From contig NZ_VDMA02000013.1 in the NCBI RefSeq assembly GCF_006334915.2, positions 186,001-250,000 on the forward strand: 64,000 bases of DNA, given 5' to 3'. This DNA comes from Microbispora catharanthi. Lineage in GTDB: Bacteria; Actinomycetota; Actinomycetes; Streptosporangiales; Streptosporangiaceae. The position numbers and the translations under genes were made by a program. Shown one piece after another: positions 5,355 to 64,000 of the stretch. The notes under the pieces were generated by a model that made no database searches, was not told the origin of the DNA, and saw only the letters and a list, made by a program, of their open reading frames with translations. Numbering within the stretch: the first letter of the stretch is position 1; each line of letters opens with the position of its first letter.

Positions 5355-6575
<1,221 letters not shown>

Positions 6576-6576
6576 C

Positions 6577-48764: not shown

Positions 48765-49579
48765 CCCTTCACCGCGCCCGCGATCATCCCGGAGGACACG
48801 CGGCGCTGGAGCACGAGGAAGACGAGCAGGACGGGGAGCATGAACAACGTGGCGGCGGCCATGGTGGCGCCCCAGTCGGTGCCGAAGACGTTGCTGAACC
48901 CGGACAGCCAGATCGGCAGCGTACGGTCGCCCTGATCCTTGATCATGAGGGCGTTGGCGAAGGCGAACTCGTTCCAGGCCGTGATGAAGCCGAACAGCGA
49001 CGTGGACATCAGGCCCGGCGCGAGCAGCGGCAGCACCACCCGGCGGAACGCCTCCGTCCGGCCGCACCCGTCCATCAGCGCGGCCTCCTCCAGCTCGGGC
49101 GGGACCGCCGCGATGAAGCCGCGCAGCGTCACGATCGTGAACGGCAGCGTCGTGACGAAGTACACGAGCGTCAGCGTCGGCAGCCGGTCGAGCATGTCCG
49201 CGTCGCGGGCGATGATGTAGACGGGCACGAGCAGCGCCGACCAGGGGGCGGTCTGGGCGACGAAGACCATCAGGACGAACCCGCGCCGCCCGGACCAGCG
49301 CAGCCGGGCCACCGCGAATGCGGCCGGCAGCGCCACGACCAGTGCGAGCAGCACCGCGCTGACGGTGACGGCGAGGCTGTTGCGCCAGAACGTCCAGAAC
49401 CCCGCGGCCCTCACGGCCGTGGCGAAGTGGTCGAGGGTCGGCCGTGCGGGCCAGAACGCCGGGGTCTCGGTGAGGATGTCCACCGTCGGCTTGAACGCGG
49501 TGATCACCATCCAGTAGACGGGGAACACCGACACCGCCAGCACGCCCAACGCGGCCAGATTCAGCGCGACCCTCTTCAC
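48761..49579 (-). CDS. carbohydrate ABC permease (DasC-like, CUT1)
   Basis: 272 residues with six spans; GTG start at 49579 with GGAGGGAG before it, overlapping the preceding stop by 4 bases. EAA loop: ELEEAALMDGCGRTEAFRRVVLPLLAPGL. The MalG-type order of N-terminal FPVYWMVITAFKP and C-terminal tail is clear. Partner of the permease at 49576 and the binding protein at 50525; the ATPase (MsiK-type in Streptomyces) must be encoded elsewhere. Confidence 0.92.
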   Translation of the reverse strand: MKRVALNLAALGVLAVSVFPVYWMVITAFKPTVDILTETPAFWPARPTLDHFATAVRAAGFWTFWRNSLAVTVSAVLLALVVALPAAFAVARLRWSGRRGFVLMVFVAQTAPWSALLVPVYIIARDADMLDRLPTLTLVYFVTTLPFTIVTLRGFIAAVPPELEEAALMDGCGRTEAFRRVVLPLLAPGLMSTSLFGFITAWNEFAFANALMIKDQGDRTLPIWLSGFSNVFGTDWGATMAAATLFMLPVLLVFLVLQRRVSSGMIAGAVKG

Positions 49580-50523
49580 GCTCCCTCCTCCCGGAACATG
49601 CGGCGCAGATGGACGACCAGCACCGCGAGCAGCATCAGCACGGTGAGCGTGGAGACGGCCGACCCCAGGTCGTACCGGTGCAGCGACTGCGCGATCTGAA
49701 ACGCGTAGACCGGCAGCGTGGCCGTGGCGCCTCCGGGGCCGCCCTTGCTGATCGCCCAGATCTGCGCGAAGCAGGTGAAGACCCAGATCACCTCCAGCGA
49801 CGTGATCAGGCCGAACAGCGGGCGCAGGATGGGGAACGTGACCCGGCCGAAGACCTGCCAGGGTCCGGCGCCATCGATCCTGGCCGCCTCGTACAACTCG
49901 CCGGGGATGGTCGTGAGCCCCGCGTAGAGGGTGAGCACCGCGAACGGCACCGACTGCCAGACGACAAGCGCGACCAGGATCGCGAACGTCGCCCCACCGT
50001 CGGCGAACCACGTGTAGTCGCGGAAGGAGTCGAAGCCGAGGCGGACCAGCAGCCAGTTGACCACGCCCAGGCGTGACTGGAAGAGCCACTGGAAGATCGT
50101 GGTCGCGGCGAGCACCGGCGTGGCCCAGGTGAGCACCATCCCGCTCATGACCGCCAGCCGCATCCGCCGCCCGAGGCGCGGCAGCATCAGCGCGACGGCC
50201 GTGGCGATCACCATGATCACCACGACGTTGGCGGCGGTCCACAGGAAGGTCCGCCGCACGACCGCCCAGAACTCCGGGCCGCCGAGGGCCTCGGCGTAGT
50301 TGGCGAGCCCGGCGAAGTCCGCTCCGCCCCTGATCAGCTCGCCCAGCCGGAAGTGCTGGAAGGAGATCACGATGCTGCGGGCCAGCGGATAGACGAGCAG
50401 GCACGCGAAGCCGGCCACCGCCGGGCCCACCAGCAGGTAGGGCCACAGCGCGCCTTTTCTGCGGGGTCTCGCCTCGATCACGAGAGCAGGACGGGCCGCC
50501 GTACGGGCGAGGGTGCGCGCCAT
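49576..50523 (-). CDS. carbohydrate ABC permease (DasB-like, CUT1)
   Basis: 315 residues of MalF type. An N-terminal cytoplasmic tail leads to LWPYLLVGPAVAGFACLLVY, and the EAA loop is GELYEAARIDGAGPWQVFGRVTFPILRP. Starts one base after the binding-protein stop (50525). Works with the DasC-like permease. Confidence 0.92.
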   Translation of the reverse strand: MARTLARTAARPALVIEARPRRKGALWPYLLVGPAVAGFACLLVYPLARSIVISFQHFRLGELIRGGADFAGLANYAEALGGPEFWAVVRRTFLWTAANVVVIMVIATAVALMLPRLGRRMRLAVMSGMVLTWATPVLAATTIFQWLFQSRLGVVNWLLVRLGFDSFRDYTWFADGGATFAILVALVVWQSVPFAVLTLYAGLTTIPGELYEAARIDGAGPWQVFGRVTFPILRPLFGLITSLEVIWVFTCFAQIWAISKGGPGGATATLPVYAFQIAQSLHRYDLGSAVSTLTVLMLLAVLVVHLRRMFREEGA

Positions 50524-50524
50524 G

Positions 50525-51784
50525 TCAGGACTTGGTGTTGAGGATCGTGGTGATCACGTCGGAGGCCGCCTTCGCCTCGGTGGCCGCGTCGCCGCCGGTG
50601 AGCACCTTGGTCATGTACTCCTTGATGACGTTCCTGGCCTCCACGGCCGCCCAGTTGGGCGAGTTGGGCGTGGCGTGCCCGACCACGGCCCCCGCCGCCA
50701 TCGCCGCGGTGGCCTCGTCGCCGCTCAGCACCCCGGCGTACGCGGTGCGGTTGGGCACGTAGCTCATCTCCTTGGCCATGTCGAGCTGGAACTTCTCCCC
50801 GGCCAGGGCCTTGACCACCTCGTACGCCTCGTCGGGGTGGGCGGACGCCTCGGGGACGATCAGGTCGGACCCTCCGGTGAAGACGGCGCCCGGTTTGTCC
50901 GCCGTCTTGCCGGGGATCGGGAAGAAGCCGAGCTTGCCCTTGAGGTCGGGGTTGGCCTTCTCGATCGCGACCGCGCCGCCGGGAGCGGAGATGATCTGCG
51001 CGACGTCGCCCTTGCCGAACACGTCGGCCTGCGGCGGCCTGGCCTCGTCGGAGTCCTTGGGCCCCTTGCCGAGCGCCTGGAGGCGCTGGTAGAACGCCAT
51101 CCCGGCGAGCGCCTGCGGCGTGTCGAGCACGCCCTTCCAGCGGTCGCCCTCCTTGACGGCGAGGTCGCCGCCCTCGTCCCAGACGAGCCCGGCGAACGTG
51201 TACCAGTTCTGGCCGGGCAGGTAGATGCCCTGCACGCCGCCCTTGTTCAGCTTCGTGGTGACGTCGATCCACTCGTCGCGGGTCTTCGGCGGGGTCGTGA
51301 CGCCGGCCTTGGCGAACAGGTCCTTGTTGTAGACCACCACCCGGTTGGCGGCGTACCAGGGAATGCCGTACTGCCTGCCGTCGATCTTCCCCGGCTCGGC
51401 CAGGCCGGACAGCCAGTCGGAGCCGCCCAGGTCGGCGACCTCGCCGGTGAGGTCCCTGACCCCGCCGCTCGCGGCGTACTCGGCGACCTGGGTGTTGCCG
51501 ACCTCGATGACGTCGGGGGCGTCCTTGCTGGCGAGCGCGCTGGTGACCTTCTGCCCGATGCCGTCCCACTCCTGGATCTGGACGTTCAGGGTGATCCCGG
51601 GATGCGACCGCTGGAAGTCGTCCGTGAACCGCTTCACGATCGCGTCCGACAGGCTGTCGCGCATGAACCACACGGTCAGCGTGGTCGTGCCGGTCTTTCC
51701 GGATGTCCCGGGCTCGGACGCCGAACCGCAACCGGCGAGCGCGAGGCTGAACGCGGCCGCCGCGGCGAGGAGGCGTAACCTCAT
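50525..51784 (-). CDS. extracellular sugar-binding lipoprotein (DasA-like)
   Basis: 419 residues. Lipoprotein signal LLAAAAAFSLALAGC with lipobox LAGC (Cys about 19), then the bacterial extracellular binding-protein type 1 fold: LTVWFMRDSLSDAIVKRF, GIPWYAANRVVVYNKDLFAK and FTGGSDLIVPEASAHPDEAY. First gene of the operon, divergent from the GntR gene, with dre-like sites in the promoter. DasA binds N,N'-diacetylchitobiose; assigned here by context (GH20, GntR) as well as fold. Confidence 0.9.
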   Translation of the reverse strand: MRLRLLAAAAAFSLALAGCGSASEPGTSGKTGTTTLTVWFMRDSLSDAIVKRFTDDFQRSHPGITLNVQIQEWDGIGQKVTSALASKDAPDVIEVGNTQVAEYAASGGVRDLTGEVADLGGSDWLSGLAEPGKIDGRQYGIPWYAANRVVVYNKDLFAKAGVTTPPKTRDEWIDVTTKLNKGGVQGIYLPGQNWYTFAGLVWDEGGDLAVKEGDRWKGVLDTPQALAGMAFYQRLQALGKGPKDSDEARPPQADVFGKGDVAQIISAPGGAVAIEKANPDLKGKLGFFPIPGKTADKPGAVFTGGSDLIVPEASAHPDEAYEVVKALAGEKFQLDMAKEMSYVPNRTAYAGVLSGDEATAAMAAGAVVGHATPNSPNWAAVEARNVIKEYMTKVLTGGDAATEAKAASDVITTILNTKS

Positions 51785-51794
51785 CGGTCCTCCC

Positions 51795-51914
51795 AGTGGT
51801 CAGTTATTGGTAAACCGTTGAGAGGAGAGTGGTCTTAACCAGTCGGGCTGTCAAGGGGCGAAATTTCGGATATTCCCAGGCACAATGCCGAGAGGAGTGG
51901 TCAGCTACTGGTAA
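51795..51914. promoter_or_regulatory. dre-like GntR sites between das-like operon and gntR
   Basis: Three related sites occur. AGTGGTCTTAACCAGT (51828-51843) has the dre core TGGT-N4-ACCA. AGTGGTCAGTTATTGGTAA (51795-51813) and AGTGGTCAGCTACTGGTAA (51896-51914) are near-identical to each other, each with TGGT repeated directly 11 bases apart. The outer two flank the whole gap and lie next to the start codons, fitting joint control of the operon and its regulator. Confidence 0.7.
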
Positions 51915-51924
51915 GGTCGAGGAC

Positions 51925-52653
51925 GTGCAGAGACTTCCAGCGGGTCTCAAGCGCGACCGGGTCAGAGACGTCCTGCTCGACCTGATCGCCGACAAGGAGC
52001 CCGGCACCGCCATCCCCTCGGAACGCGACCTGTCCCGGGAGCTCGGCGTCTCCCGCCCGACCCTCCGCGCGGCGATCGACGGGCTCGTACGGCAGGGCAT
52101 GCTCGTGCGGGAGCACGGCCGGGGGACGTTCACCGGCCGCCGGAAGGTCACCCAACCCCTCGCGGCCGGTGACGACTCCTTCCACGCCCCCGCCGCCGAG
52201 GGAAACTGGCTCAGCCGCATCCTCGAGTTCGACTCGGCCCCGGCCACCGCCCGGCTCGCGCACCGCCTGCAGGTCTCCCCCGCCGACCCGGTCCTGCGCG
52301 TCGTACGGCTCCGCCTGGTGGACGACGAGCCGATGGCCATCGAGCGCATCCACCTGCCGCACCGCCTGGTCGAGTCCCTGAGGCCCGACGACATGGTGTC
52401 CGGCTCGTTCTACCGGTTCCTGCGCACGAGGTTCGGCATCGACGTCCGCCGCGCCACGCAGAGCATCGAGCCGACCGTCACCGACGAGACCGAGGCCGAA
52501 CTGCTCGGCGTCCCCCAGCACGCCCCCGCCCTGCTCATCGAACGCACGGCCCGCGAGGCAGGCGGCCGGGTCGTCGAGTTCACCCGGTCCATCTACCGCG
52601 GCGACCGCTACCGCATCACCTCAGAGCTCCACTTCGACGACACCTCCGGCTGA
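51925..52653 (+). CDS. GntR/HutC family regulator, DasR-like
   Basis: 242 residues, GTG start with GAGG upstream. HTH: GTAIPSERDLSRELGVSRPTLRAAIDGLV with wing VREHGRGTF; the UTRA ligand domain covers about 90-240 (RLAHRLQVSPADPVLRVVRL, ITSELHFDDTSG). Family and position (divergent from dasA-like genes, dre-like sites) match DasR, the GlcNAc-6-P-responsive regulator, although this may be a dedicated paralogue rather than the global one. Confidence 0.88.
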   Translation: MQRLPAGLKRDRVRDVLLDLIADKEPGTAIPSERDLSRELGVSRPTLRAAIDGLVRQGMLVREHGRGTFTGRRKVTQPLAAGDDSFHAPAAEGNWLSRILEFDSAPATARLAHRLQVSPADPVLRVVRLRLVDDEPMAIERIHLPHRLVESLRPDDMVSGSFYRFLRTRFGIDVRRATQSIEPTVTDETEAELLGVPQHAPALLIERTAREAGGRVVEFTRSIYRGDRYRITSELHFDDTSG

Positions 52654-53331: not shown

Positions 53332-54189
53332 TCAGCGGCAGGCGACGCGGTAGGCGTCGAGGTCGAGGCGTTTCTTCAGGGAGTTGAAGTTCTGCGCGTT
53401 GGCCTTGGCGCAGAACTTCGAGGTGGCGAGGTTGTACTCCACGTTGAAGACGGCCTTGCCCGCCTTGACGAACTGGTCGAGGCCGTAGTCGCCGTTCTGC
53501 GCGGTGGTGCACTCGCTGAACTCCCAGCACTGCTCGTTCAGCGCCCAGTCGAAGTACGGCAGGAGCTGGGGGATCTGCTCGTTGTCGTTCTTCAGGCCGG
53601 CCGACAGCCCGCGGGCGTGGGCCTCGTTCGCGAGCCAGGCGTTGTAGCGGAGCTGGTCGTCCGCGGTGAGCGGGAACCCGGTCGTGTTGGTGTAGCCGTC
53701 GACGTTGTCGAACTCCACGGCGTCGAAGCCCTTGGACCTGCACATGTCGAGCCGCGCCCGCATGATCTGGCCGAGCGTGCCGCCGTACTGCCGGATGTCG
53801 AGCCAGCGCTCGCCCGCCCAGCCGTCGAGGGCCTTGCCGAGGACGGAGGCGGGGAAGGAGCCGGCGTCGGGCCGCCAGTCCTCGTAGGACCCGGCGCTGA
53901 TGTAGCAGACGACCTTGCGGCCGGTCTTGGTGGCGTGCAGCCGCTGGACGGTCGCCGCCGTGGCGTTGAAGCCGTCGATGTCGTACATCGCGACGTCCAG
54001 GAACGGCTCCGCGGGCACCGAGCTGAGCTGCCACTGCCAGCTCGTGTTCAGCGCGGGATGCCAGCAGCTGGCGCACGAGACGGGTGCGGGCAGGGCCGCC
54101 GCGTCCGCGGCGGCCGGGGCGCCGAAGAGCGCGCCGAGGAACGCCGTGCAGGCGGCGAGCATCGCCGCCAGGTATCGGAGAATGCGCAT
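53332..54189 (-). CDS. secreted GH114 endo-alpha-1,4-polygalactosaminidase-like enzyme
   Basis: 285 residues from ATG 54189 (GGGAGGAAG upstream). Signal peptide RILRYLAAMLAACTAFLGAL to about residue 33. GH114 fold segments in order: WHPALNTSWQWQLSSVPAEP, MYDIDGFNATAATVQRLHA, KVVCYISAGSYEDWRPDAGS, ERWLDIRQ, GFDAVEFDNVDGYTNTTGF, LSAGLKNDNEQIPQ and FNVEYN near the end. The family contains bacterial polygalactosaminidases and fungal Ega3, which hydrolyse alpha-1,4-galactosamine. It is next to a sugar ABC transporter and GH4 genes. The exact substrate is inferred. Confidence 0.9.
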   Translation of the reverse strand: MRILRYLAAMLAACTAFLGALFGAPAAADAAALPAPVSCASCWHPALNTSWQWQLSSVPAEPFLDVAMYDIDGFNATAATVQRLHATKTGRKVVCYISAGSYEDWRPDAGSFPASVLGKALDGWAGERWLDIRQYGGTLGQIMRARLDMCRSKGFDAVEFDNVDGYTNTTGFPLTADDQLRYNAWLANEAHARGLSAGLKNDNEQIPQLLPYFDWALNEQCWEFSECTTAQNGDYGLDQFVKAGKAVFNVEYNLATSKFCAKANAQNFNSLKKRLDLDAYRVACR

Positions 54190-54239
54190 GTTCTTCCTCC
54201 CAGTGAGATCGACGGGGCGCATGCGTGCTGTTCCGCACT

Positions 54240-54284
54240 CTCCACACCGCCTCGCCCCCGGGGGATGCTCTAGACGGTGTGGAG
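54240..54284. repeat. 10-bp inverted repeat between GH114 and transporter genes
   Basis: CTCCACACCG (54240-54249) and CGGTGTGGAG (54275-54284) are exact inverted copies around a core CCCCCGGGGG (54256-54265). It could terminate the transporter operon ending at 54378 or be an operator of the GH114 gene starting at 54189. The rest of the 188-base gap shows nothing else. Confidence 0.55.
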
Positions 54285-54377
54285 TGGCGTGGCCCAGGGA
54301 GGTCGGCAGGGCGCACGCCAGCACGGGGAAGGAAACCTCCTCTCTGCCCGGATGCTCCAGGTGCTCCGGGGGCGCGA

Positions 54378-55703
54378 TCAGCCGCCGGAGAACAGGGCGT
54401 TGACCTTCTGGTTGGCCGCGGTCAGCGCGGTGCGCGCGTCCTTCTGGCCGAGCCAGACCTCCTCCATCGCGGTGGAGACGATCTGGTTGATCTCGTCGCC
54501 GTGGTCGCTCACCGGCAGCAGGAACGTCCCGCCGGGCGCCTCGGCCTCGTCGACGAACAGCCGCACGTCGCGGCCCGCCGCCTTGTGGGCCTTGAGCGCC
54601 CGCTCGACCGAGGAGGTGATGGCCGGGAAGACCACCGCGTTGTCGGCGACGATGTCCTGGCAGCCTGTGGAGCCGAGGAACCTCACCCACTTCCAGGCGG
54701 CGTCCTTGTGCTCGGTGCCCGCGTAGATGACGTCGGCGAGGCCGTTGAAGGCGGACTTGCGGCCCTGCGGCCCGGTCGGCAGCGGCGCGAAGGCGAACTT
54801 CTGCGACTTCGAGTCGAGGTAGGTCCTGATCATCCAGGAGCCGGTGATGCCGAGCGCGCCCTTGCCCGCGTTCAGCATCGTGTCCGGGCCCAGCGAGCTC
54901 GTCTTGTCGTACGGCGTGGCGTACCCCTTGTCGGCCAGACGCCTGAACCAGTCGGCGGTCTCGGCGAGCTTGGGGCTGTCGTAGAAGTAGCGGGTGCCGA
55001 ACGGGTTCTTGTCGATGAACGTGAAGCCGTTGGAGACCGCCAGGTCGCCCCAGCCGTTCTGGCCCTGCGAGCCGTCGTTCAGCTCGGGCACGATGCCGTG
55101 CACGGCGACCTTGGTCTTGTCGAAGCCGGGCTCGTCGCCGCGCTTGCCGTTCGCGTCCACGGTCAGGTGGGCGATGGCCTTCTCGAAGGTGCCGCCGTCG
55201 GCGGGGTTCCACGTCAGGCCGGACATGTCCACGCCCGCCTTCTTCGCCATGTCGACGTTGTAGACGATGGCGATCGTGTCCCAGTCCTTGGGCAGGCCGT
55301 ACCGCTTGCCGTCCTTCACCCAGAGGTCGGCCAGGCCGGGCCAGTACTGCCCCAGGTCGATCTTGTCGGCCGTCACCATCGGCTGGATGTCCAGGAGCTG
55401 GCCGTTCGCGACGAACTGGGGATAGTACGACGCCTGCATCGTGATCACGTCGGGGGCGCCGCCGGAGACCATCTGGGTGGTGAGGTTCTGCCAGTACTGG
55501 TCCCAGGCGCTCTGCGAGATCTTGATGGTGATGTCCGGGTTGGCCTTGTGGAACGCGTCGGCGCACTGCTGGTAGGCGCCCTGCTGGACGTCGTCCCACA
55601 ACGCGTAGGTGAGCGTGACGCCGCCGGCGTCCGCCGGGCCGCCGCCCCCGCCGCAGGCCGCCGTCAGGAGCAGGGCGGTCACCGCCATGAATGCCTTCTT
55701 CAA
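54378..55703 (-). CDS. extracellular sugar-binding lipoprotein (CUT1 type)
   Basis: 441 residues, TTG start at 55703 with AAGGG six bases upstream (a second TTG at 55709 overlaps the permease stop). Lipoprotein signal KKAFMAVTALLLTAAC, Cys about 17 followed by Gly-rich sequence. Binding-protein fold segments: LTYALWDDVQQGAYQQCADA, YGLPKDWDTIAIVYNVDMAK and GKGALGITGSWMIRTYLD. Third gene of an operon with two permeases. Ligand unknown; neighbouring GH114 and GH4 enzymes suggest a galactosamine or galactose oligosaccharide. Confidence 0.9.
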   Translation of the reverse strand: MKKAFMAVTALLLTAACGGGGGPADAGGVTLTYALWDDVQQGAYQQCADAFHKANPDITIKISQSAWDQYWQNLTTQMVSGGAPDVITMQASYYPQFVANGQLLDIQPMVTADKIDLGQYWPGLADLWVKDGKRYGLPKDWDTIAIVYNVDMAKKAGVDMSGLTWNPADGGTFEKAIAHLTVDANGKRGDEPGFDKTKVAVHGIVPELNDGSQGQNGWGDLAVSNGFTFIDKNPFGTRYFYDSPKLAETADWFRRLADKGYATPYDKTSSLGPDTMLNAGKGALGITGSWMIRTYLDSKSQKFAFAPLPTGPQGRKSAFNGLADVIYAGTEHKDAAWKWVRFLGSTGCQDIVADNAVVFPAITSSVERALKAHKAAGRDVRLFVDEAEAPGGTFLLPVSDHGDEINQIVSTAMEEVWLGQKDARTALTAANQKVNALFSGG

Positions 55704-55705
55704 CG

Positions 55706-56641
55706 TCAACCCTTCATGCCGGAGAACTGGATGGAGTCCACGAGGCGGCGGCCGAAGAAGACCACCAGCAGCAGGACGGGGACGACCGACAGGGCGGAGC
55801 CCGCCATCAGGCCGGTCCAGTCGGGCGAGGTGTTGGGCGACTGCTTGAGGAAGATGCCGAGCGCGGCGGTGAGCACGCGGGTGTCCTCGCCCGGCGCCAC
55901 GAGCAGCGGCCACAGGTAGTCGTTCCAGGTCCACACCGCGGTCGTCAGCGCCAGGGTGAACAGCGGCCCCTTGGTCATGGGCAGCACCACCCGCCAGAAG
56001 ATCGTCCAAGGCCCGGCTCCGTCGATGAACGCCGCCTGCTCGACGTCGCGGGGGATGCCGAGGAAGAACTGGCGCAGGAAGAACACCGCGAACGGCGTCA
56101 CGAGCAGGCTGGGGGCGACCAGGCCCTGGTAGGTGTTGAGCCACCCGAGCTGCTTCACCAGGGCGAAGTTGGGCAGCAGCGTGAAGATCGGGGGCACCAT
56201 CAGCGCGGCGACGAACACGTTGAACAGGGCGTCCCTGCCGCGGAAGCGCAGCCGCGCGAACGCGTACCCGGCCATGGCGCAGAAGATCGTCTGCGCGCAG
56301 GTGATCAGGCCGGTGTAGACGACGGAGTTGCGCAGGTAGAGGAAGAAGCTGAGGTTCGCCCCCGACCCGCCGGCCGCGCGGGCCTCGTCCCGGCTCACCA
56401 GGCCGAGCACGCGCTCGAAGTTGATCAGCGTGGGGTGCCGGGGCAGCAGCCCGGCGTTGTCCGACGGCAGTTCCGGGCCGGGGGTGATCGCGGTCCGCAG
56501 CATCCACCACAGCGGGAAGAGCGAGATCCCGAGAGCGAGGATCAGGCAGATCCAGGCCGGCAGGCGGCGCAGCCGCCGGCGGCCCACACTCGCCGGTGCG
56601 CCCACACCAACCGGCGCGCTCATGCTCACCGGCGCGCTCAT
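55706..56641 (-). CDS. carbohydrate ABC permease (CUT1, MalG type)
   Basis: 311 residues. N-terminal repeats MSAPVSMSAPVGVGAPASVG precede the first span (WICLILALGISLFPLWWML). The EAA loop reads DVEQAAFIDGAGPWTIFWRVVLPMTKGPL. Ends three bases before the binding-protein start. The N-terminal extension is odd but may be a spread of short DNA repeats at 56590-56641. Confidence 0.92.
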   Translation of the reverse strand: MSAPVSMSAPVGVGAPASVGRRRLRRLPAWICLILALGISLFPLWWMLRTAITPGPELPSDNAGLLPRHPTLINFERVLGLVSRDEARAAGGSGANLSFFLYLRNSVVYTGLITCAQTIFCAMAGYAFARLRFRGRDALFNVFVAALMVPPIFTLLPNFALVKQLGWLNTYQGLVAPSLLVTPFAVFFLRQFFLGIPRDVEQAAFIDGAGPWTIFWRVVLPMTKGPLFTLALTTAVWTWNDYLWPLLVAPGEDTRVLTAALGIFLKQSPNTSPDWTGLMAGSALSVVPVLLLVVFFGRRLVDSIQFSGMKG

Positions 56642-57561
56642 GCGAGGTCAGACCGGGAGGCGCGCAGGAGGCGCATCTGGACGAAGGTCAGCAGGCCGAG
56701 GATGAGCACCAGGCTCAGCGCCAGCGCCGAGGCGTATCCCATCTTGAAGTGGGTGAACGCCTCCTCGTAGATGTAGAAGTAGACGACGCGGGTGGCGTCC
56801 ACCGGTCCCCCCTTCGTGGTCACCGCGACGGCGTCGAACAGCTGGAACGAGTCGATCAGCGAGACCACCAGGACGAACGCCAGGATGGGGCGGAGCAGCG
56901 GCAGGGTGATGCGGAAGAACTGGCGCACCTCGCCGGTGCCGTCGAGGGCCGCCGCCTCGTAGATCTGCCGCGGCACCAGCAGCATCCCGGCGTACAGCAG
57001 CAGCGTGGTGTATCCCGTGGCGCCCCAGGCGTTGATCGCCGCCACGCTCGGCATCGCCAGCCCGGGCGAGGTCAGGAAGCCCTGGTTGTCCAGGCCGAGG
57101 CTCACCAGCAGGTGGTTGAAGAAGCCGAGGTTGGCGTCGAGCAGCCACATCCACAGCAGTGCCGAGGTCACGTTGGGCACCAGCCAGGGCACGACCAGCA
57201 GCGAGCGGAGCACGAGCGACCGGGTGAGGCGGTGCATCAGGGCGGCCAGGCCGAGGCCCGCGACGATCTGCATCCCGACGGTGAGCACCACGTAGTAGGC
57301 GGTGACCTTCAGCGAGTTCCAGAACAGCGGGTCCCCGACGAGCTCGGCGTAGTTGTCCAGGCCGACGAACCCGGGCTCGGACAGCAGATTCCAGTCCGTC
57401 AGGGAGTACCAGGCTCCGCGTACGGCCGGATAGACGTAGAAGGCGGCGAACCCGATGAGCACGGGCGCCAGGAAGGCCAGCGCCACTCTGCCGTCCCCGC
57501 GTCTGCGGCGGGGCAGGGCGGCGCCGGCGGTCTCCGTTTTCGTGAGGGTCGCGGTCGTCAT
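56638..57561 (-). CDS. carbohydrate ABC permease (CUT1, MalF type)
   Basis: 307 residues from ATG 57561; the frame is open to 57687 but without a start signal. First span VALAFLAPVLIGFAAFYVYP; EAA loop QIYEAAALDGTGEVRQFFRITLPLLRPIL. First gene of the transporter operon, overlapping the next permease by 4 bases. Expression is probably controlled by the TCGAA/TTGACA operator element at 57642-57667. Confidence 0.92.
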   Translation of the reverse strand: MTTATLTKTETAGAALPRRRRGDGRVALAFLAPVLIGFAAFYVYPAVRGAWYSLTDWNLLSEPGFVGLDNYAELVGDPLFWNSLKVTAYYVVLTVGMQIVAGLGLAALMHRLTRSLVLRSLLVVPWLVPNVTSALLWMWLLDANLGFFNHLLVSLGLDNQGFLTSPGLAMPSVAAINAWGATGYTTLLLYAGMLLVPRQIYEAAALDGTGEVRQFFRITLPLLRPILAFVLVVSLIDSFQLFDAVAVTTKGGPVDATRVVYFYIYEEAFTHFKMGYASALALSLVLILGLLTFVQMRLLRASRSDLA

Positions 57562-57641
57562 CGTCGCGGCATCTCCAGACCTCCTGAGACCACCGGGACG
57601 AGCCGGTGCGGGCGGGATGTTGGAGACCATAATGGTCGCTT

Positions 57642-57734
57642 TCGAAACCTTGTCAATACCTTCGAAGACGTCCCACTCACCACTCAAGGTGACCGTTTTC
57701 GGCCCATATCGAAAGACTTGACAAGTTATCGAAG
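57642..57734. promoter_or_regulatory. mirror-image promoters with shared TCGAA-flanked -35 blocks
   Basis: Each divergent promoter has a 27-bp block of the form TCGAA-N4-TTGACAAG-N3-TCGAA: minus strand at 57668-57642 for the ABC operon and plus strand at 57709-57735 for the kinase-GH4 genes. TTGACA is an exact -35 in both. The TCGAA copies flank it one helical turn on either side, so one repressor could shut both promoters. Confidence 0.8.
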
Positions 57735-57755
57735 GTGCTGGGACCGTTCCGGTCC

Positions 57756-58682
57756 ATGGGGAGACCAGATTTCGACCTGCTCGTCGTCGGTGACGCGAAC
57801 CCCGACGTGGTCGTCACGGGAGCGCCGCGCGTTCCGGAGTTCGGCCAGCGCGAGCGGCTCGTCGAGGCCGGCGCGCTGGTGCTCGGCGGATCGGGGGCGA
57901 TCACGGCCTGCGGCGCGGCCCGGCTTGGCCTGCGCACCGCCTTCGCCGGCCGCGTGGGCGACGACGCCGCGGGCGCGTTCGTGCTCGACGCGCTCACCCG
58001 CAGCGGGGTGGACGTCGCCGCCTGCGTCGTGGACCCCGCCGCGCCTACGGCCCTCACCGTGGTGCTGGCCGACGGCGGTGACCGGGCCATCCTGACCGCA
58101 CCCGGCTGCCTGGACCGGCTCGAACCGGGCGACGTGCCGGCGGACCTGCTGGAACGCGCCGCCCACGTCCACGTCTCGTCCTATTTCCTGCAGCCCCGGC
58201 TGGCCTCCGGCCTGCCCGCCCTGTTCCGTACGGCACGGGCCGCGGGGGCCACCACGTCCCTGGACACCAACGACGACCCGTCGGGCCGCTGGCAGGGGCT
58301 CGACGAGGTCCTGCCGCTGACCGGCGTCCTGCTGCCGAACGAGCGCGAGGCCCTCGCCATCGCCGGGCGCGCCGACGGCGACCTCGAAGGCGCCGTACGC
58401 GACCTCGCCGCCCGGGGCACCACGCCCGTGGTCAAGTGCGGCGGCGACGGCGCGCTGACGATCCACGAGGGCGAGCCGGTCCGCGTGCCGGCCGCCCCGG
58501 CCACCGTGGTCGACACGGTCGGAGCCGGCGACAGCTTCAACGCCGGCCTCCTCGCGGCCCGCCTGCGCGGGCTCCCGCTCCACCGCGCCCTGGAGGTCGC
58601 GGTGGCCTGCGGCACCCTCTCCACCCGAGCCGCGGGGGGCACAGCGGCGCAGCCGACCTGGGAGGAAGTAGTCACCCGATGA
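57756..58682 (+). CDS. PfkB family carbohydrate kinase
   Basis: 308 residues. N-terminal FDLLVVGDANPDVVVTG and LVLGGSGAITACGAARLGL, anion-hole motif DTVGAGDSFNAGLLAARLRG with catalytic Asp near residue 255. Phosphorylates a sugar freed after import; substrate not readable. ATG 57756 has no ribosome-binding site but lies eight bases after GACCGT, suggesting a leaderless message from the promoter with TTGACA at 57718. Overlaps the GH4 gene by 4 bases. Confidence 0.9.
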   Translation: MGRPDFDLLVVGDANPDVVVTGAPRVPEFGQRERLVEAGALVLGGSGAITACGAARLGLRTAFAGRVGDDAAGAFVLDALTRSGVDVAACVVDPAAPTALTVVLADGGDRAILTAPGCLDRLEPGDVPADLLERAAHVHVSSYFLQPRLASGLPALFRTARAAGATTSLDTNDDPSGRWQGLDEVLPLTGVLLPNEREALAIAGRADGDLEGAVRDLAARGTTPVVKCGGDGALTIHEGEPVRVPAAPATVVDTVGAGDSFNAGLLAARLRGLPLHRALEVAVACGTLSTRAAGGTAAQPTWEEVVTR

Positions 58683-59983
58683 GAAACCCGAAGATCGCCT
58701 TCATCGGCGCGGGAAGCGTCGTCTTCACCCAGGGCCTGCTCGCGGACCTGCTGGCCTACCCCGAACTACGGGAGGCCAGGATCGCGCTGCACGACATCGA
58801 CGCCGAGCGGCTGCGGGTCGCCGAGACCGTCGCGCACCGGATCGCGGCGGCCCGCGGCGCCCGACCGGCGGTCACCGCCGATCTCGACCGCCGGGCCGCC
58901 CTCGACGGCGCCGACTTCGTGATCAACATCATCCAGGTGGGCGGGCACGACGCGACCGTCACCGACTTCGAGATCCCCGCCCGGTATGGCCTGCGGCAGA
59001 CGATCGCCGACACGATCGGCGTCGGCGGGATCTTCCGGGCGCTGCGCACCTTCCCGGTCCTCGACGCCCTCGCGGCCGACATGGCCGCCGTCTGCCCCGA
59101 CGCCCTGCTGCTCAACTACACCAACCCGATGGCCATGAACGTCTGGTATCTCAGCGGCAAGGTGCGCAACGTCGTCGGCCTGTGCCACTCGGTGTACTGG
59201 ACCATGCGGGGGCTGGCGGATCTCGTGGCCGTGCCGTACGAGGAGGTGGCGTACCTGGCCGCCGGGGTGAACCACCAGGCGTGGGTGCTGCGGTTCGAGC
59301 GGGACGGCGAGAACCTGTACGACCGGCTGGACGACGCCATCGCGCGCGACCCGGAGCTGCGCCGCCGGGTGCGGGTGGAGATGTACCGGCGCCTGGGCCA
59401 CTACCCCACCGAGACCAGCGAGCATTCGGCCGAGTATCTGCCCTGGCTGCTGCGCCACGACGACGAGATCGACCGGCTGCGCATCCCGGTGGGCGAGTAC
59501 GTGCGGATCAGCGAGGAGAACGTGCGCGAGTACAAGCGCACCCGCGACGCCGTACGGCACGGCGGGGACCTGCCCGTGGAGGGCACCGGCGAGTACGCCC
59601 CGCAGATCATCCACAGCGTCGTGACCGGCACCCCGCGCGTGGTCTACGGCAACGTCGTCAACGACGGGCTGATCGCCAACCTGCCGCCCGGGTGCGTGGT
59701 CGAGGTGCCGTGCGCGGTGGACGCGACCGGGGTGCTGCCCACCCGGGTCGGCGCCCTCCCGCCGCAGTGCGCCGCGGTCAACCGGGCGTACGTCAACGTC
59801 AACGAGCTGACCGTGCGGGCCGCGCGGGAGGGACGGCCGGAGCACGTGCGGCACGCCATGATGGTGGACCCGAACACGTCGGCGACGTTGTCGCTGGAGG
59901 AGATCTGGCGGCTGTGCGACGACCTGACCCGGGCGCACGGCGACCTGCTTCCCGAGGCGCTGCGCGCGACCCTCGCCGGCTGA
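58679..59983 (+). CDS. GH4 glycosidase (alpha-galactosidase/alpha-glucosidase-like)
   Basis: 434 residues. NAD(H) loop IAFIGAGSVVFTQGLLADLL; Mn2+ ligands in LCHSVYW (Cys169, His170) and VNHQAWVLRF (His199); conserved DFVINIIQVGG, NYTNPMAMN and EHSAEYLPWL. GH4 enzymes cleave by NAD-dependent oxidation at C3, inside the cell. The branch resembles MelA-type alpha-galactosidases. Coupled to the PfkB gene, so the two probably process one imported glycoside. Confidence 0.92.
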   Translation: MRNPKIAFIGAGSVVFTQGLLADLLAYPELREARIALHDIDAERLRVAETVAHRIAAARGARPAVTADLDRRAALDGADFVINIIQVGGHDATVTDFEIPARYGLRQTIADTIGVGGIFRALRTFPVLDALAADMAAVCPDALLLNYTNPMAMNVWYLSGKVRNVVGLCHSVYWTMRGLADLVAVPYEEVAYLAAGVNHQAWVLRFERDGENLYDRLDDAIARDPELRRRVRVEMYRRLGHYPTETSEHSAEYLPWLLRHDDEIDRLRIPVGEYVRISEENVREYKRTRDAVRHGGDLPVEGTGEYAPQIIHSVVTGTPRVVYGNVVNDGLIANLPPGCVVEVPCAVDATGVLPTRVGALPPQCAAVNRAYVNVNELTVRAAREGRPEHVRHAMMVDPNTSATLSLEEIWRLCDDLTRAHGDLLPEALRATLAG

Positions 59984-59994
59984 CGTCCGCCGCC

Positions 59995-60786
59995 TCAGGC
60001 CGCGATCTCCACCTTGAGGCCGCGATCGCGGAGCACGGCCACCGTCGCCGGATCGGCCGACTCTCCCGTGATGAGCAGGTCGATCTCCGACAGCGGGCAG
60101 ATCGGCGCCATTCCGATCGCCCCGAGCTTGGAGGAGTCGGCGACCACGATGCGGCGGCCGGCCGCCCGCAGCATGCGCTGCTTCATCTCCGCGTCGGGCA
60201 GGTTCACGTTGGTGATCCCGACGTCCGGGTGGACGCCGCCGCAGCCGATGAAGACGGTGTCCACCCGGATGCCCTCGATGGCCTTGCCGCCGAGCGGATC
60301 CACCAGGGAGTGCTGCTGGCGGCGCAGGCTCCCCCCGGTCACGACGACGGCGAAGCGGGGCAGCGCGGGCTCCAGCTCCAGCGCCGTACGCAGGCCGTTG
60401 GTGAAGACGGTGACCTCGGTGAGGTCGGCCCGGGCGACGAGCTCCCTGGCCACGTAGGCCGTGGTGGTCCCCGCGCCCATCATCACGCTCTCCCCCGAGC
60501 CGACCAGCCGGGCCGCCGCCTTGGCGATCAGCGCCTTCTCCACGGCCGCCGTGCCGAGCGACAGCTCGAACGACGGCTCGGTGCGCCGCGGCGGGCCGGC
60601 CGCGACGGCCCCGCCGCGCACCCGGCGGATGCGTCCCTGCTCCTCCAGCGCGTCCAGGTCGGCGCGTACGGTGACGCTGGAGACGCCGAACGCCTCGGCG
60701 AGCTCGGCGACCCGGGCGAACTCCTGCTCCATGAGCATGCCGAGCATGCGCTCCCGCCGCACCTCCGTGGGCATGGAGTCGGTCAT
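59995..60786 (-). CDS. DeoR/GlpR family regulator (AgaR-like)
   Basis: 263 residues from ATG 60786. HTH: RRERMLGMLMEQEFARVAELAEAFGVSSVTVRADLDALEEQGRIRRVRGG. The DeoR C-terminal sugar-phosphate domain follows with MMGAGTTTAYVARELVAR, VFTNGLRTALELEPALPRF and ADSSKLGAIGMAPICPLSEI. Inducer is a phosphorylated sugar. Overlaps the upstream GH4 gene by 4 bases. Direct repeats at 62168-62184 and 62265-62281 are its likely sites. Confidence 0.92.
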   Translation of the reverse strand: MTDSMPTEVRRERMLGMLMEQEFARVAELAEAFGVSSVTVRADLDALEEQGRIRRVRGGAVAAGPPRRTEPSFELSLGTAAVEKALIAKAAARLVGSGESVMMGAGTTTAYVARELVARADLTEVTVFTNGLRTALELEPALPRFAVVVTGGSLRRQQHSLVDPLGGKAIEGIRVDTVFIGCGGVHPDVGITNVNLPDAEMKQRMLRAAGRRIVVADSSKLGAIGMAPICPLSEIDLLITGESADPATVAVLRDRGLKVEIAA

Positions 60787-62096
60787 GGCCTGCTCCCGGC
60801 GAATCGGACGCCCTCCGGCAGCAGGTCGCCGTGCGCCTCGATCAGCTCGTCGCAGAGCGCCTCGATCGCGGGCAGGGGCAAGGTCGCGGCGGTGTTCGGG
60901 TCGAGCATCGCGGCGTGGTGGACGTGCCTGCGGTCGCCGTCGAGCACCGCGCGCACGGTCAACTCGACGACGTTGAGGAACGTGCGGTTGAGCGCCACGA
61001 GCTGGATGGGCAGCTCTCCCACCGGCCGGGGGTGGACTCCGTCGGCGTCGACCAGGGCGGGCACCTCCACGCAGCAGCCCTCGGGCAGGTTGCCGATCAG
61101 CCCGTGGTTGGGGACGTTGACGTAGACCTCCTTCTCCTGGCCGGTCAGCATGGCCAGGAGCGCGGCCGCCGCGGGCTCCTGGTGCTGCCAGCGCACCAGC
61201 AGCGAGCGGCCGGCCGACAGCGCCCGCCGCGTCTCCTCGTACAGGTGCAGGCTGTGGCCCACCCGCCGCAGGTACTCCTCGGGACGCACCCCGAGGCGCG
61301 CGGTCTCCTCGCTGTGCCGCATGAACCACGGGACGTACTCGGCGGCGTGCTCGCTCGACTCCGTCGGGAAGTAGCCGAACCGGCGGTAGAGCTCCACCCG
61401 CACGTGCCGCCGCAGCTCGGGATCGGCCTCGAGCACCTCGTCGAGGTCGGGATACAGGGAGCGGCCCTCGGCCTCGAACCGCAGCACGAACGACTGGTGG
61501 TTGAGGCCCGCGCTGAGGAACGTGACCTCGTCCAGCCCCCGGCCGACCAGATCGGCCAGGTACGCGTGCGTGTCGCAGACGGCGTGGCACACCCCGGCGA
61601 ACCGCTTGAAACCGGTCGCCTCCTGCACCGCCCAGCCCGTCATCGCCATCGGGTCGCTGCAGCTCAGCAGCCAGGCGTCCGGGCACAGCTCGGCCATCTC
61701 GCGGCCCAGCTCGACGAAGACCGGAATCGTCCGCAGCCCGCGGAAGATGCCGCCGATGCCGATGGTGTCGCCGATCGTCTGGCGCAGGCCATACCTGTGC
61801 GGGATCTCGAAGTCGCGCAGGGTCGCCTCGAACCCGCCCACGTCGATGTGGCCGACGACGAAGTCGGCGCCGTCCAGCGCCCTGCGCCTGCTCGGGCAGG
61901 TGACGATCGCCGCCACCGACCCGGCTTCGGCGTCGAGCGCGCGGACCAGGGCCTCTGCCGTCGCGAGCTGCCCGGGGTTCTCGTCGTGCAGCACGATCTC
62001 CAGCTCGCCCCGCAGCGAGGGGGCGAGGAGAAGATCGGAGACCACCCTGCGCGTCAGCTCCACGTCCCCGACGCCGACGAAGACGATGCGCGCCAT
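60783..62096 (-). CDS. second, diverged GH4 family enzyme
   Basis: 437 residues. NAD(H) loop VFVGVGDVELTRRVVSDLLL; putative metal site in VCHAVCDTH (Cys170, His171) and LNHQSFVLRF; DFVVGHIDVGGFEATL and EHAAEYVPWF in place. The loop GVGD and the second Cys174 set it apart from the GH4 at 58679, with which it shares only moderate similarity, so it may act on another glycoside or epimeric sugar. Transcribed with the DeoR gene. Confidence 0.88.
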   Translation of the reverse strand: MARIVFVGVGDVELTRRVVSDLLLAPSLRGELEIVLHDENPGQLATAEALVRALDAEAGSVAAIVTCPSRRRALDGADFVVGHIDVGGFEATLRDFEIPHRYGLRQTIGDTIGIGGIFRGLRTIPVFVELGREMAELCPDAWLLSCSDPMAMTGWAVQEATGFKRFAGVCHAVCDTHAYLADLVGRGLDEVTFLSAGLNHQSFVLRFEAEGRSLYPDLDEVLEADPELRRHVRVELYRRFGYFPTESSEHAAEYVPWFMRHSEETARLGVRPEEYLRRVGHSLHLYEETRRALSAGRSLLVRWQHQEPAAAALLAMLTGQEKEVYVNVPNHGLIGNLPEGCCVEVPALVDADGVHPRPVGELPIQLVALNRTFLNVVELTVRAVLDGDRRHVHHAAMLDPNTAATLPLPAIEALCDELIEAHGDLLPEGVRFAGSRP

Positions 62097-62167
62097 CCCA
62101 CCTCCCGCCCGGTACGTGCGCGAAGACTACTTCACCCAATGCTCCCACGCACCCCATGAAAGGACGA

Positions 62168-62281
62168 TGCGCGATCTTGCGCGTAACCCATTGATTCCGC
62201 GCACATCACCTCATCACCCGTCCCGGTCCGCTGGCGTTCGCGACGACCGTACGACGTCCTCCATTGCTCGAATCTGCTCGA
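62168..62281. promoter_or_regulatory. direct-repeat DeoR-like sites between divergent operons
   Basis: TGCGCGA (62168-62174) and TGCGCGT (62178-62184), and TGCTCGA (62265-62271) and TGCTCGA (62275-62281), are each repeated with exact 10-base spacing. DeoR-family proteins bind such helical direct repeats. One pair is near the GH4/DeoR start, the other near the SIS start. Confidence 0.6.
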
Positions 62282-62321
62282 TAGTGCTACAAATCTTGCA
62301 TCAATGAGCACTGGAGGGCCT

Positions 62322-63215
62322 GTGAGTCACACCGAGACCGAGATCGCGTCCCAGCCGGCCTGCTGGAGCCGCGCCGCCGGCCTGGCCTCCTCCGGCGCCC
62401 TGCCGGCGAAGGGCGAACGGGTGGCGGTGGTCGGCTGCGGCACCTCGTGGTTCATGGCCCAGGCCTACGCCGCGCTCCGCGAGGGCGCGGGGCACGGCGA
62501 GACCGACGCCTTCCCCGCGTCCGAGGCCCCGATCGGCCGCCGTTACGACCGGGTGCTGGCGCTCACCAGGTCGGGCACCACGACCGAGGTGCTCGACCTG
62601 CTCCGCCGCATCCGCGAGCAGGGCGGGGAACGGGCCCGGACGGCCGCGGTCACCGCCGATCCGCACACGCCGGTCATGTCCCTCGCCGACGAGGTCGTCG
62701 TCCTCGACTTCGCCGACGAGCGGTCGGTCGTGCAGACGCGGTTCGCCACCGCGCAGCTCGCCATGCTGCGGGCGCACCTCGGCGAGGACCTCACCGGGGC
62801 GATCGCCGACGCGGAGCGCGCGCTCGCCGAACCGCTGTCCCCCGGCCTCGTGGCCGCCGAACAGTTCTCCTTCCTCGGCACCGGCTGGACGTACGGCCTG
62901 GCGCGGGAGGCGGCGCTGAAGATGCGGGAGGCCTCGCAGTCGTGGACGGAGGCCTACCTCGCCATGGAGTATCGCCACGGCCCGATCAGCATCGCCGCGC
63001 CCGGCCGCGTCACGTGGGCGTTCGGCCCGGTGCCGCGCGGGCTGCGGGGCGAGGTGGAGGCCACCGGCGCCACGTTCGTGGAGGGCGGCCTCGACCCCAT
63101 GGCCGAGCTCATCCTGGTGCAACGGCTCGCGGTCGCCAGGGCGCACGCCCGCGGTCTCGACCCCGACGCGCCGGCGCACCTCACCCGATCGGTCATCCTC
63201 CGCGAATCGCCGTGA
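62322..63215 (+). CDS. SIS-domain sugar isomerase/deaminase (AgaS/GlmS-C-like)
   Basis: 297 residues, GTG start with GGAGG upstream; ATG 62304 is in frame but without a site. Two SIS domains: VAVVGCGTSWFMAQAYAALR, LALTRSGTTTEVLDLLRRIR, and AAEQFSFLGTGWTYGLAREAALKMREASQSW, then AMEYRHGPISI. The second matches the isomerase half of GlmS and AgaS-type enzymes acting on amino-sugar-6-phosphates. Overlaps the kinase gene (GTGA). In the Aga route AgaS converts galactosamine-6-P toward tagatose-6-P. Confidence 0.88.
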   Translation: MSHTETEIASQPACWSRAAGLASSGALPAKGERVAVVGCGTSWFMAQAYAALREGAGHGETDAFPASEAPIGRRYDRVLALTRSGTTTEVLDLLRRIREQGGERARTAAVTADPHTPVMSLADEVVVLDFADERSVVQTRFATAQLAMLRAHLGEDLTGAIADAERALAEPLSPGLVAAEQFSFLGTGWTYGLAREAALKMREASQSWTEAYLAMEYRHGPISIAAPGRVTWAFGPVPRGLRGEVEATGATFVEGGLDPMAELILVQRLAVARAHARGLDPDAPAHLTRSVILRESP

Positions 63216-64000
63216 CCGGCGTGATCCTCACCGTCACGGTGAACGCGGCGCTCGACGTCACCTACGGCGTCGACGACGTCGACTGGAACGGCGTCAACCG
63301 CGTGCGCGGCGTGCACCGCAGGGCGGGCGGCAAGGGCGTCAACGTGGCCCGCGTCCTCACCGCCCTCGGCCACGAGGTCCTCGCCGTCGGCCTGGCCGGC
63401 GGCCCGACCGGCGACGCCGTGCTCGCCGACCTGTCCGCGGCCGGCGTCCCCGCCGCGTTCACCCCCATCGCGGGAGAGACCCGCACCACCCTCGCCGTCC
63501 GCGCGGCCGGGAGGACCACGCTGTTCAACGAGCCGGGGCCGGTGGTCACCCCGGAGGAGCTGGCGCGCTTCGTCGACGCGTACGAGCGGGCCCTCGGCGG
63601 GGCGTCCGCCGTGGTGATCTCCGGCAGCCTCCCGCGCGGACTGCCCGCCGACCTCTACGCCACGCTGGCCGCCGTCGCCGCCCGGCACGACGTCCCGGCC
63701 GTCGTGGACGCCGACGGCGCTCCCCTGCGCCACGCCCCCGCCGGCCGGCCCGCCGTGCTCAAACCCAACGCCGAGGAGCTCGCCCGCGCGCTGCGTCCGG
63801 ACGCCGGGGAGGTGCTGGACATCGCCACCGGAGCCCGCCTCCTGAGGGACGAGGGCGCCGGCTCGGTCGTGGTCTCGCTGGGGTCGGACGGCGTGCTCGC
63901 CGCGACCCCGGAGGGGACCTGGCGGGCCCGCATGCCCTACCGGGTGGAGGGCAATCCGACCGGCGCCGGAGACGCGCTGGTGGCGGGACTCGCGCTCGGC
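63212..64000 (+). CDS. PfkB kinase, 1-phosphofructokinase/tagatose-6-phosphate kinase-like (partial)
   Basis: 263 residues are visible; the window ends before the stop. GTG start at 63212 overlaps the SIS stop. Sequence features: ILTVTVNAALDVTYGVDDVD, RRAGGKGVNVARVLTALGHE, VVISGSLPRGLPADLYATLA and NPTGAGDALVAGLALG with catalytic Asp. Typical of LacC/FruK, which phosphorylate tagatose-6-P or fructose-1-P. Its partner aldolase would be expected just beyond the window. Confidence 0.9.
   Translation, partial: MTGVILTVTVNAALDVTYGVDDVDWNGVNRVRGVHRRAGGKGVNVARVLTALGHEVLAVGLAGGPTGDAVLADLSAAGVPAAFTPIAGETRTTLAVRAAGRTTLFNEPGPVVTPEELARFVDAYERALGGASAVVISGSLPRGLPADLYATLAAVAARHDVPAVVDADGAPLRHAPAGRPAVLKPNAEELARALRPDAGEVLDIATGARLLRDEGAGSVVVSLGSDGVLAATPEGTWRARMPYRVEGNPTGAGDALVAGLALG

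Follow-up and report, generated by a model that had tools for sequence, protein, structure and literature searches.

A predicted galactosamine-polymer utilisation locus in Microbispora catharanthi and related actinobacteria

What role could a predicted secreted endo-α-1,4-galactosaminidase have in a bacterium that encodes it next to a sugar importer and sugar-phosphate enzymes? The question is raised by a gene cluster of Microbispora catharanthi in a 64,000-nucleotide stretch of contig NZ_VDMA02000013.1 (C4:186001-250000, hereafter the window) within the 9.25-Mb genome. The cluster combines a glycoside hydrolase family 114 (GH114) enzyme, a CUT1-type ATP-binding cassette (ABC) importer, two GH4 glycosidases (GH4a and GH4b), a PfkB kinase, a DeoR regulator, a SIS-domain protein and a LacC-like kinase (Table 1). 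A preliminary description of the window had proposed that such a set could depolymerise, import and catabolise a galactosaminogalactan-like polymer. The computational analysis supports this proposal through an aldolase gene found beyond the window, the recurrence of the set in other genera and orders, and a missing deacetylase, and the locus is probably a utilisation system for extracellular polysaccharide or oligomers containing α-1,4-linked galactosamine.

The window proteins were identified by Pfam and NCBIfam profile scans, which detect every gene family that the preliminary description had named, including a binding protein with two CUT1-type permeases (SBP_bac_1/8 and BPD_transp_1), both GH4 Pfam domains in each of GH4a and GH4b, the DeoRC and HTH_DeoR domains of the regulator and a ribokinase-type PfkB domain (188 bits). 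The GH114 protein scores 283 bits against PF03537 (cut-off 27) and is the single PF03537 match in a genome-wide profile search. Its best match in the PDB is Ega3 of Aspergillus fumigatus (6oj1, E=1.1e-52), and both Ega3 entries stand at the top with 182 bits. Residues Asp189 and Glu247 of Ega3, given as the nucleophile and the acid/base in the accessible text of PMC12054363, align with Asp157 and Glu215 of GH114, numbered on its scanned stretch (+4 if counted from ATG 54189). In these residues and in its secreted-looking N terminus, the protein resembles the GH114 endo-α-1,4-galactosaminidases, to which Ega3 and the Pseudomonas sp. 881 enzyme belong, but it sits in a bacterial catabolic cluster, whereas Ega3 belongs to fungal polymer modification. 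The same text reports that Ega3 acts with high specificity on deacetylated stretches of galactosamine and, in 2025, terms soluble bacterial GH114 enzymes elusive. The nearest named relative of the window enzyme is a 95% identical GH114 of Microbispora siamensis.

In the proposed pathway, which draws on linkage, the deacetylase pattern and specificity clues, every substrate specificity, the import of oligomers, the order of steps and the regulation are predicted. The secreted GH114 would cut deacetylated galactosamine stretches of the polymer, the ABC importer would take up oligomers, and GH4a, as a cytoplasmic NAD+-dependent enzyme, would free galactosamine from them. The PfkB kinase would convert galactosamine to galactosamine-6-phosphate, which the SIS protein would deaminate and isomerise to tagatose-6-phosphate. 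The LacC-like kinase would then form tagatose-1,6-bisphosphate, to be split into dihydroxyacetone phosphate and glyceraldehyde phosphate by a class II aldolase. The preliminary description had pointed to the DNA past position 64000 as the place to look for this last enzyme, and a class II aldolase gene starts there at 64172. One or both DeoR proteins, the second encoded after the aldolase, would control the set. Galactosaminogalactan consists of galactose, N-acetylgalactosamine (GalNAc) and galactosamine according to the accessible part of PMC12054363, and a mixed polymer of this kind would explain the presence of two different GH4 enzymes; for GH114, a Pel-like or another polymer is just as possible a substrate.

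The predicted route from galactosamine-6-phosphate through tagatose-6-phosphate and tagatose-1,6-bisphosphate to triose phosphates, together with a DeoR-type regulator, is shared with the aga/gam systems of E. coli and others (AgaS, KbaYZ and AgaR). It is an established practice to tell GalNAc from galactosamine pathways by whether AgaA is present, and the galactosamine-only version is known by its missing AgaA (PMC5583593). By predicted activities, the window cluster has this gene content: a SIS deaminase-like gene, a kinase and a ketose-bisphosphate aldolase stand together, and a deacetylase is absent. Unlike aga/gam, the window has an ABC-type importer and a PfkB kinase in place of a phosphotransferase system, a SIS protein that does not belong to the AgaS family, and a secreted GH114 clustered together with GH4 enzymes.

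Family models place the catabolic proteins less precisely than the preliminary description had done. Its AgaS-like SIS protein does contain a SIS domain but falls outside the AgaS family (TIGR02815, 31 bits; cut-off 529); GlmD and GlmS models outscore TIGR02815, yet stay below their own cut-offs. The nearest solved structures of the SIS protein are glucosamine-6-phosphate deaminases and their relatives, and the eight best fold matches of its structure model (predicted local distance difference test score, 89.8) are glucosamine-6-phosphate deaminases, PH0510 and GlmS. The protein may work like AgaS, which in E. coli is a galactosamine-6-phosphate deaminase (PMC3668189, accessible text). Similarly, the LacC/FruK-like kinase belongs to the 1-PFK subfamily (TIGR03168, 298 bits; cut-off 216) but not to LacC (TIGR01231, 197 bits; cut-off 410), and its best PDB match is the tagatose-6-phosphate kinase 2awd. 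The aldolase stays under the cut-offs of the GatY/KbaY models (TIGR01858, 187 versus 444; NF009374, 214 versus 383), and the kinase and aldolase models fail to separate tagatose from fructose chemistry. For the DeoR protein, the AgaR model NF040755 is the best of 12 models listed, at 161 bits, below the cut-off of 260.

The binding protein of the importer, which carries a lipobox-like LLLTAAC motif (judged by eye), has two UspC entries as its best PDB matches (125 and 123 bits; next, 75). UspC favours sugars whose 2-amino group is free and shows a response to galactosamine, according to the accessible text of PMC4929945. The resemblance is weak support for amino-sugar import and was set aside as a substrate clue: it is not repeated in L117, an independent cluster, and the window importer proteins share 51-69% identity with their counterparts in loci L135-L145, where neither GH114 nor SIS was detected. 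No transporter ATPase was seen among the cluster genes scanned; actinobacterial importers of the CUT1 kind usually share the MsiK ATPase.

The linkage of these genes was surveyed with searches for GH114, GH4a, SIS and aldolase over the same 200 genomes of the host's family, which at the thresholds used gave matches in 76, 50, 107 and 97 genomes, respectively. Linkage was counted for the best 44 of 59 GH4a-like rows (from 41 genomes, among them the host's own and its nearest relative); of the 15 lower rows set aside, four are GH4b genes of window-type clusters and 11 lack GH114 or SIS nearby. GH114 lies within 20 kb of GH4a in 21 rows and SIS in 28, compared with chance expectations of ∼0.2 and ∼0.3 pairs (random placement, 8-Mb genomes). 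An aldolase lies within this distance in 23 rows, at least one of the three in 40 and none in four. Moreover, genomes with GH4a carry SIS anywhere more often than those without it (39/41 versus 68/159), and the same holds for GH114 (31/41 versus 45/159). Gene calls in the relatives come from a purpose-written script, so their boundaries are rough; the 9-, 12- and 20-kb limits and the bit thresholds used throughout are the analysts' choices, and some loci are cut short by contig ends.

Twenty regions were fetched for comparison of the full set. L117, L118 and L119, from two other genera, contain GH114, GH4, binding protein, permeases, SIS, LacC-like kinase, aldolase, DeoR and PfkB in a gene order unlike that of the window. 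The same full set occurs in L121, with no DeoR detected, and in L115, where it is spread over ∼17 kb with other genes interspersed. L133 shows synteny with the window, and in L114 only GH114 is missing. In a wider survey of 374 genomes of the host's class (GH4a match threshold 1e-120), 21 genomes have a GH4a match, 17 of them outside the host's family. Within 20 kb, GH114 is found at four and SIS at 10 of these 17 loci, with both at one, so that 13 of the 17 have at least one of them (counted by eye; a second tally agrees). PfkB was detected in nine of the 17 loci. L220 is the same DNA as L105. The four outside loci without nearby GH114 or SIS are L218, L219, L222 and L226. L219, L222 and L226 encode AgaS-like proteins (437, 489 and 500 bits, below the cut-off of 529) and, in all three loci scanned, a BadF/BcrA-type kinase where PfkB is lacking; in L219, a KbaZ/AgaZ protein additionally exceeds its cut-off (638.6 versus 568.8). 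L218 matches their gene layout (layout only). Other deaminase and kinase types thus appear to replace SIS and PfkB, which argues that the steps in question are galactosamine-6-phosphate deamination and amino-sugar phosphorylation.

A NagA-like deacetylase, typical of GalNAc-type operons, is missing from loci of this kind. NagA was counted at 100 bits or more within 9 kb of SIS in 73 SIS loci: 49 drawn at random from 95 unfetched loci without nearby GH4, and two sets of 14 and 10 chosen mostly for GH4. It occurs in none of the 20 loci with GH4 but in 33 of 53 without it (31/49 of the random draw; Fisher p ∼4e-7), and in none of the 25 loci with PfkB but in 33 of 48 without it (p ∼2e-9); the tests treat related genomes as independent, so these p-values are too small. 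L115 counts as without GH4 here, although its GH4 lies ∼12.5 kb from SIS. NagA was likewise not detected at the 17 GH4a loci outside the family. From gene content, the pattern suggests that the sugar handled by GH4- and PfkB-linked loci is free galactosamine and not GalNAc.

A tree of 84 SIS entries shows 11 changes of GH4 context and six of NagA context, compared with means of 25 and 26 after shuffling. The GH4/NagA pattern thus does not go back to a single inherited event. The window SIS groups with SIS proteins of NagA operons, and 33 of the 84 entries lie in NagA-containing loci. An operon of DeoR, SIS, NagA, LacC and aldolase genes is common among actinobacterial SIS genes (L116:7193-12322 and L123:7182-12098; NagA over cut-off in L116) and is likely an actinobacterial GalNAc route. 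The L116 and L123 operons share homologous SIS (76 and 78% identity), kinase, aldolase and DeoR genes with the window; they differ in carrying NagA, and GH4, GH114 and PfkB were not detected there. The L116 operon adjoins an alpha-glycerophosphate-oxidase-like gene. Since the window SIS is of the NagA-operon type and its DeoR and importer resemble those of L135-L145, the window cluster seems to have been put together from several sources, as judged from sequence relationships.

Against NF011657, a GH4 α-galactosidase subfamily model that is silent on substrate (cut-off 486), GH4a scores 597 and GH4b 474 bits. GH4a shares GH4 domains and the CHSV motif with MelA-type α-galactosidases, but its motifs (NYTNPM, CHSVYWT and NHQAW) depart from those of E. 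coli MelA (NYVNPM, CHSVQGT and NHMAF), and it stands in linkage with GH114 and amino-sugar genes. Members of the GH4a clade have, in the loci examined, NYTNPM, CHS[VI][YHF]WT and NHQ[AS]W, with NHQGW once, and all 17 members outside the family have CHSV[YHF]WT and NHQAW. A second GH4 group, represented in the full sets of L117-L119 and elsewhere, mostly shows CHSVRDT and NHQA[FW]. GH4b has SCSDPM and CHAVCDT; the Cys-His part of the CHSV/CHAV motif is presumably the metal site. As sequence features, such motifs mark clades and prove no substrate. An Asn-to-Asp change in GH4b was considered as a sign of amino-group binding, a reading abandoned since the same Asp occurs in the GH4 genes of L135-L145. 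GH4b may strip α-galactose units from a mixed polymer, for example galactosaminogalactan, and this is the least certain part of the scheme.

L135-L145 form a recurrent locus with a DP-motif GH4 and a DeoR gene, and in most of them the importer genes show the 51-69% identity to the window's given above; it is perhaps another α-galactoside system. Scanned members encode Melibiase-like proteins (L136 and L137) and DUF4832/DUF4874 proteins (L136 and L141). GH4-like genes that have diverged much further (32 and 38% identity; incomplete at the edge of the fetched DNA) occur in PfkB-SIS-LacC-aldolase loci lacking GH4a (L154:14771-15901 and L187:15104-15901).

Several observations weigh against the galactosamine reading. 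Only two of the 15 genomes of the genus, the host's own included, have a GH114 match. In the family, 84 of 87 GH114 rows were counted, the other three being further fragments of genes already in the set. GH4a is missing within 20 kb of 63 of the 84 (21 have it, and 10 have SIS near), and only 10 of the 21 GH4a genes beside GH114 have SIS or aldolase within 20 kb. GH4a is present in the fetched flank of only 14 of 80 public-genome GH114 loci and is missing from several GH114 loci at 73-80% identity (L038, L042, L044, L047 and L050-L052); conversely, the GH4a-like loci L212 and L213 lack GH114 and pathway genes, and L214 has PfkB only. The SIS, kinase, aldolase and DeoR proteins stay under the AgaS, LacC, GatY/KbaY and AgaR cut-offs, and UspC is absent from the 46 matches (E≤1e-8) of the L117 binding protein. 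Because the linkage is looser from the GH114 side, GH114 has other contexts, and it is GH4a that usually occurs with GH114 or catabolic genes. If close GH114 homologues so often stand outside such a cluster, and the GH4b-DeoR-importer part resembles loci where GH114 and SIS were not detected, GH114 might simply lie beside an unrelated sugar operon, with no functional link. Such a chance composite is very improbable, given a linkage far above chance in the family that is repeated outside it in differing gene orders, and the 11 changes of GH4 context on the SIS tree, by which the linkage was not inherited as a single event.

The locus could also serve another sugar. In an α-galactoside locus, GH4 would free galactose, PfkB would yield galactose-6-phosphate and SIS tagatose-6-phosphate for LacC and the aldolase, with GH114 incidental. 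Such a route needs no deacetylase and agrees with the score of GH4a above the α-galactosidase cut-off, the many GH4a/SIS loci without GH114 and the Melibiase-like genes that adjoin GH4b-similar genes in L136 and L137. It is nevertheless unlikely: GH114 stands beside GH4a in 21 of 44 family and four of 17 outside loci, the SIS homologues lie in NagA-containing loci in 33 of 84 tree entries, the window SIS has amino-sugar-phosphate deaminases as its closest folds, and AgaS-like proteins accompany BadF-type kinases in L219, L222 and L226. A GalNAc-glycan locus, in which the GH4 enzymes and importer would handle α-GalNAc oligomers and a distant NagA would deacetylate, would draw on the NagA that is found over cut-off elsewhere in the host genome (C33) and fits the position of the window SIS among those of NagA-type operons. 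This version is quite improbable in view of the exclusion of NagA from the 9-kb surroundings of SIS in the GH4- and PfkB-linked loci examined and its non-detection in the 17 outside loci, and of the specificity for deacetylated stretches described for Ega3 of GH114.

Beyond the window, the utilisation of galactosamine-containing polymer can be extended, on balance and with modest confidence, to an actinobacterial system of several families. In it, the GH4 clade with CHS[VI][YHF]WT and NHQ[AS]W would be an NAD+-dependent exo-α-galactosaminidase and the PfkB clade a galactosamine 6-kinase, repeatedly assembled from different lineages with GH114 optional. The catabolic route is already known; the gene combination, the GH4 and PfkB roles and the breadth appear new. 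In agreement with the preliminary description, which knew of no such cluster, a literature search covering few subscription journals found no bacterial cluster of this kind. A full-text search found no paper on a PfkB-type galactosamine kinase, and GH114 is absent from the available text of PMC7922503, a paper on glycoside hydrolase co-occurrence. Microbial extracellular polymers are reported as the predominant or sole source of soil galactosamine (PMC11014887), and galactosamine-containing cationic polymers occur in fungal and bacterial matrices (PMC12054363). No description of bacterial feeding on such a matrix was found in the literature searched. If the proposal is true, the cluster offers a GH114 of bacterial origin together with candidates for a GH4 exo-α-galactosaminidase and a galactosamine kinase, and provides a genetic marker for consumers of galactosamine-containing matrix.

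Table 1. Positions of the cluster features in window numbering, unless C4 coordinates are given
Feature	Position	Strand	Basis and remarks
GH114 endo-α-1,4-galactosaminidase (predicted), secreted-looking N terminus	53332..54189	-	PF03537; likely ATG 54189
CUT1-type solute-binding lipoprotein	54378..55703	-	SBP_bac_1/8; start TTG 55703 or ATG 55688
Importer permease, UgpE/MalG type	55706..56641	-	BPD_transp_1
Importer permease, UgpA/MalF type	56638..57687	-	BPD_transp_1; open reading frame as listed, ATG 57630 perhaps true start
Two similar elements (TCGAAA, TTGNCAA, TCGAAG), putative operator (possibly DeoR) or promoter	57641-57666 and 57709-57735		Between divergent genes
PfkB/ribokinase-type sugar kinase, predicted galactosamine 6-kinase	57735..58682	+	PfkB, 188 bits; likely start ATG 57756
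GH4a glycosidase, predicted exo-α-galactosaminidase	58679..59983	+	GH4 domains, NF011657, linkage, motifs
DeoR-family regulator	59995..60786	-	DeoRC and HTH_DeoR; top NCBIfam model AgaR
GH4b, second GH4 glycosidase, role uncertain, perhaps α-galactoside units	60783..62096	-	GH4 domains
SIS-domain amino-sugar-phosphate deaminase/isomerase, predicted galactosamine-6-phosphate to tagatose-6-phosphate	62304..63215	+	SIS domain
LacC/1-PFK-type kinase, predicted tagatose-6-phosphate kinase	63212..64000, on to 64150 past the window	+	TIGR03168
Class II aldolase	64172-64996 (C4:250172-250996)		PF01116, 266 bits; directly downstream of kinase
Second DeoR	C4:251036-251791		After aldolase

The paired elements between the divergent genes are largely kept in L133 and L114, by reading of the sequences by eye. 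The three intergenic regions of the cluster have no 10-mer in common that would indicate a shared operator.

Additional features were observed near GH114 and GH4 genes of other genomes. The cluster GH114 of L117 (6589-8409), L118 and L119 is a protein of ∼600 residues, the first 300 of which match no Pfam family in L117, and L130:2299-4107 encodes a 602-residue protein with no Pfam family beside GH4. In the Streptomyces luteolifulvus locus L053, the cluster includes an additional, divergent GH114 gene and a gene of the IS605 OrfB type (12355-13194 and 5474-6682). A GFO/IDH/MocA-type oxidoreductase lies near GH114 or GH4a in several genera (L039:15205-16455 and L053:10855-12141, scanned; L043, L046 and L129, by similarity). 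Its assignment as a GH109 N-acetylgalactosaminidase was rejected, as the match to 2ixa has only E=0.00045 and ranks last of the 60 matches listed.

The genes assigned by Pfam beyond the second DeoR belong to DUF2786, RNA-ligase/ASCH and HNH nuclease families and are not sugar genes. Among them, L003:4478-5404 is a 2'-5' RNA ligase-ASCH fusion, and the HNH protein of L003:5608-7056 resembles phosphorothioate-DNA restriction nucleases with a score below the cut-off. On the other side, adjoining the GH114 end of the cluster, window positions 48761-52653 hold a second set resembling a sugar importer (one binding protein, two permeases) and, in divergent orientation, a GntR-like gene (open reading frames judged by eye).

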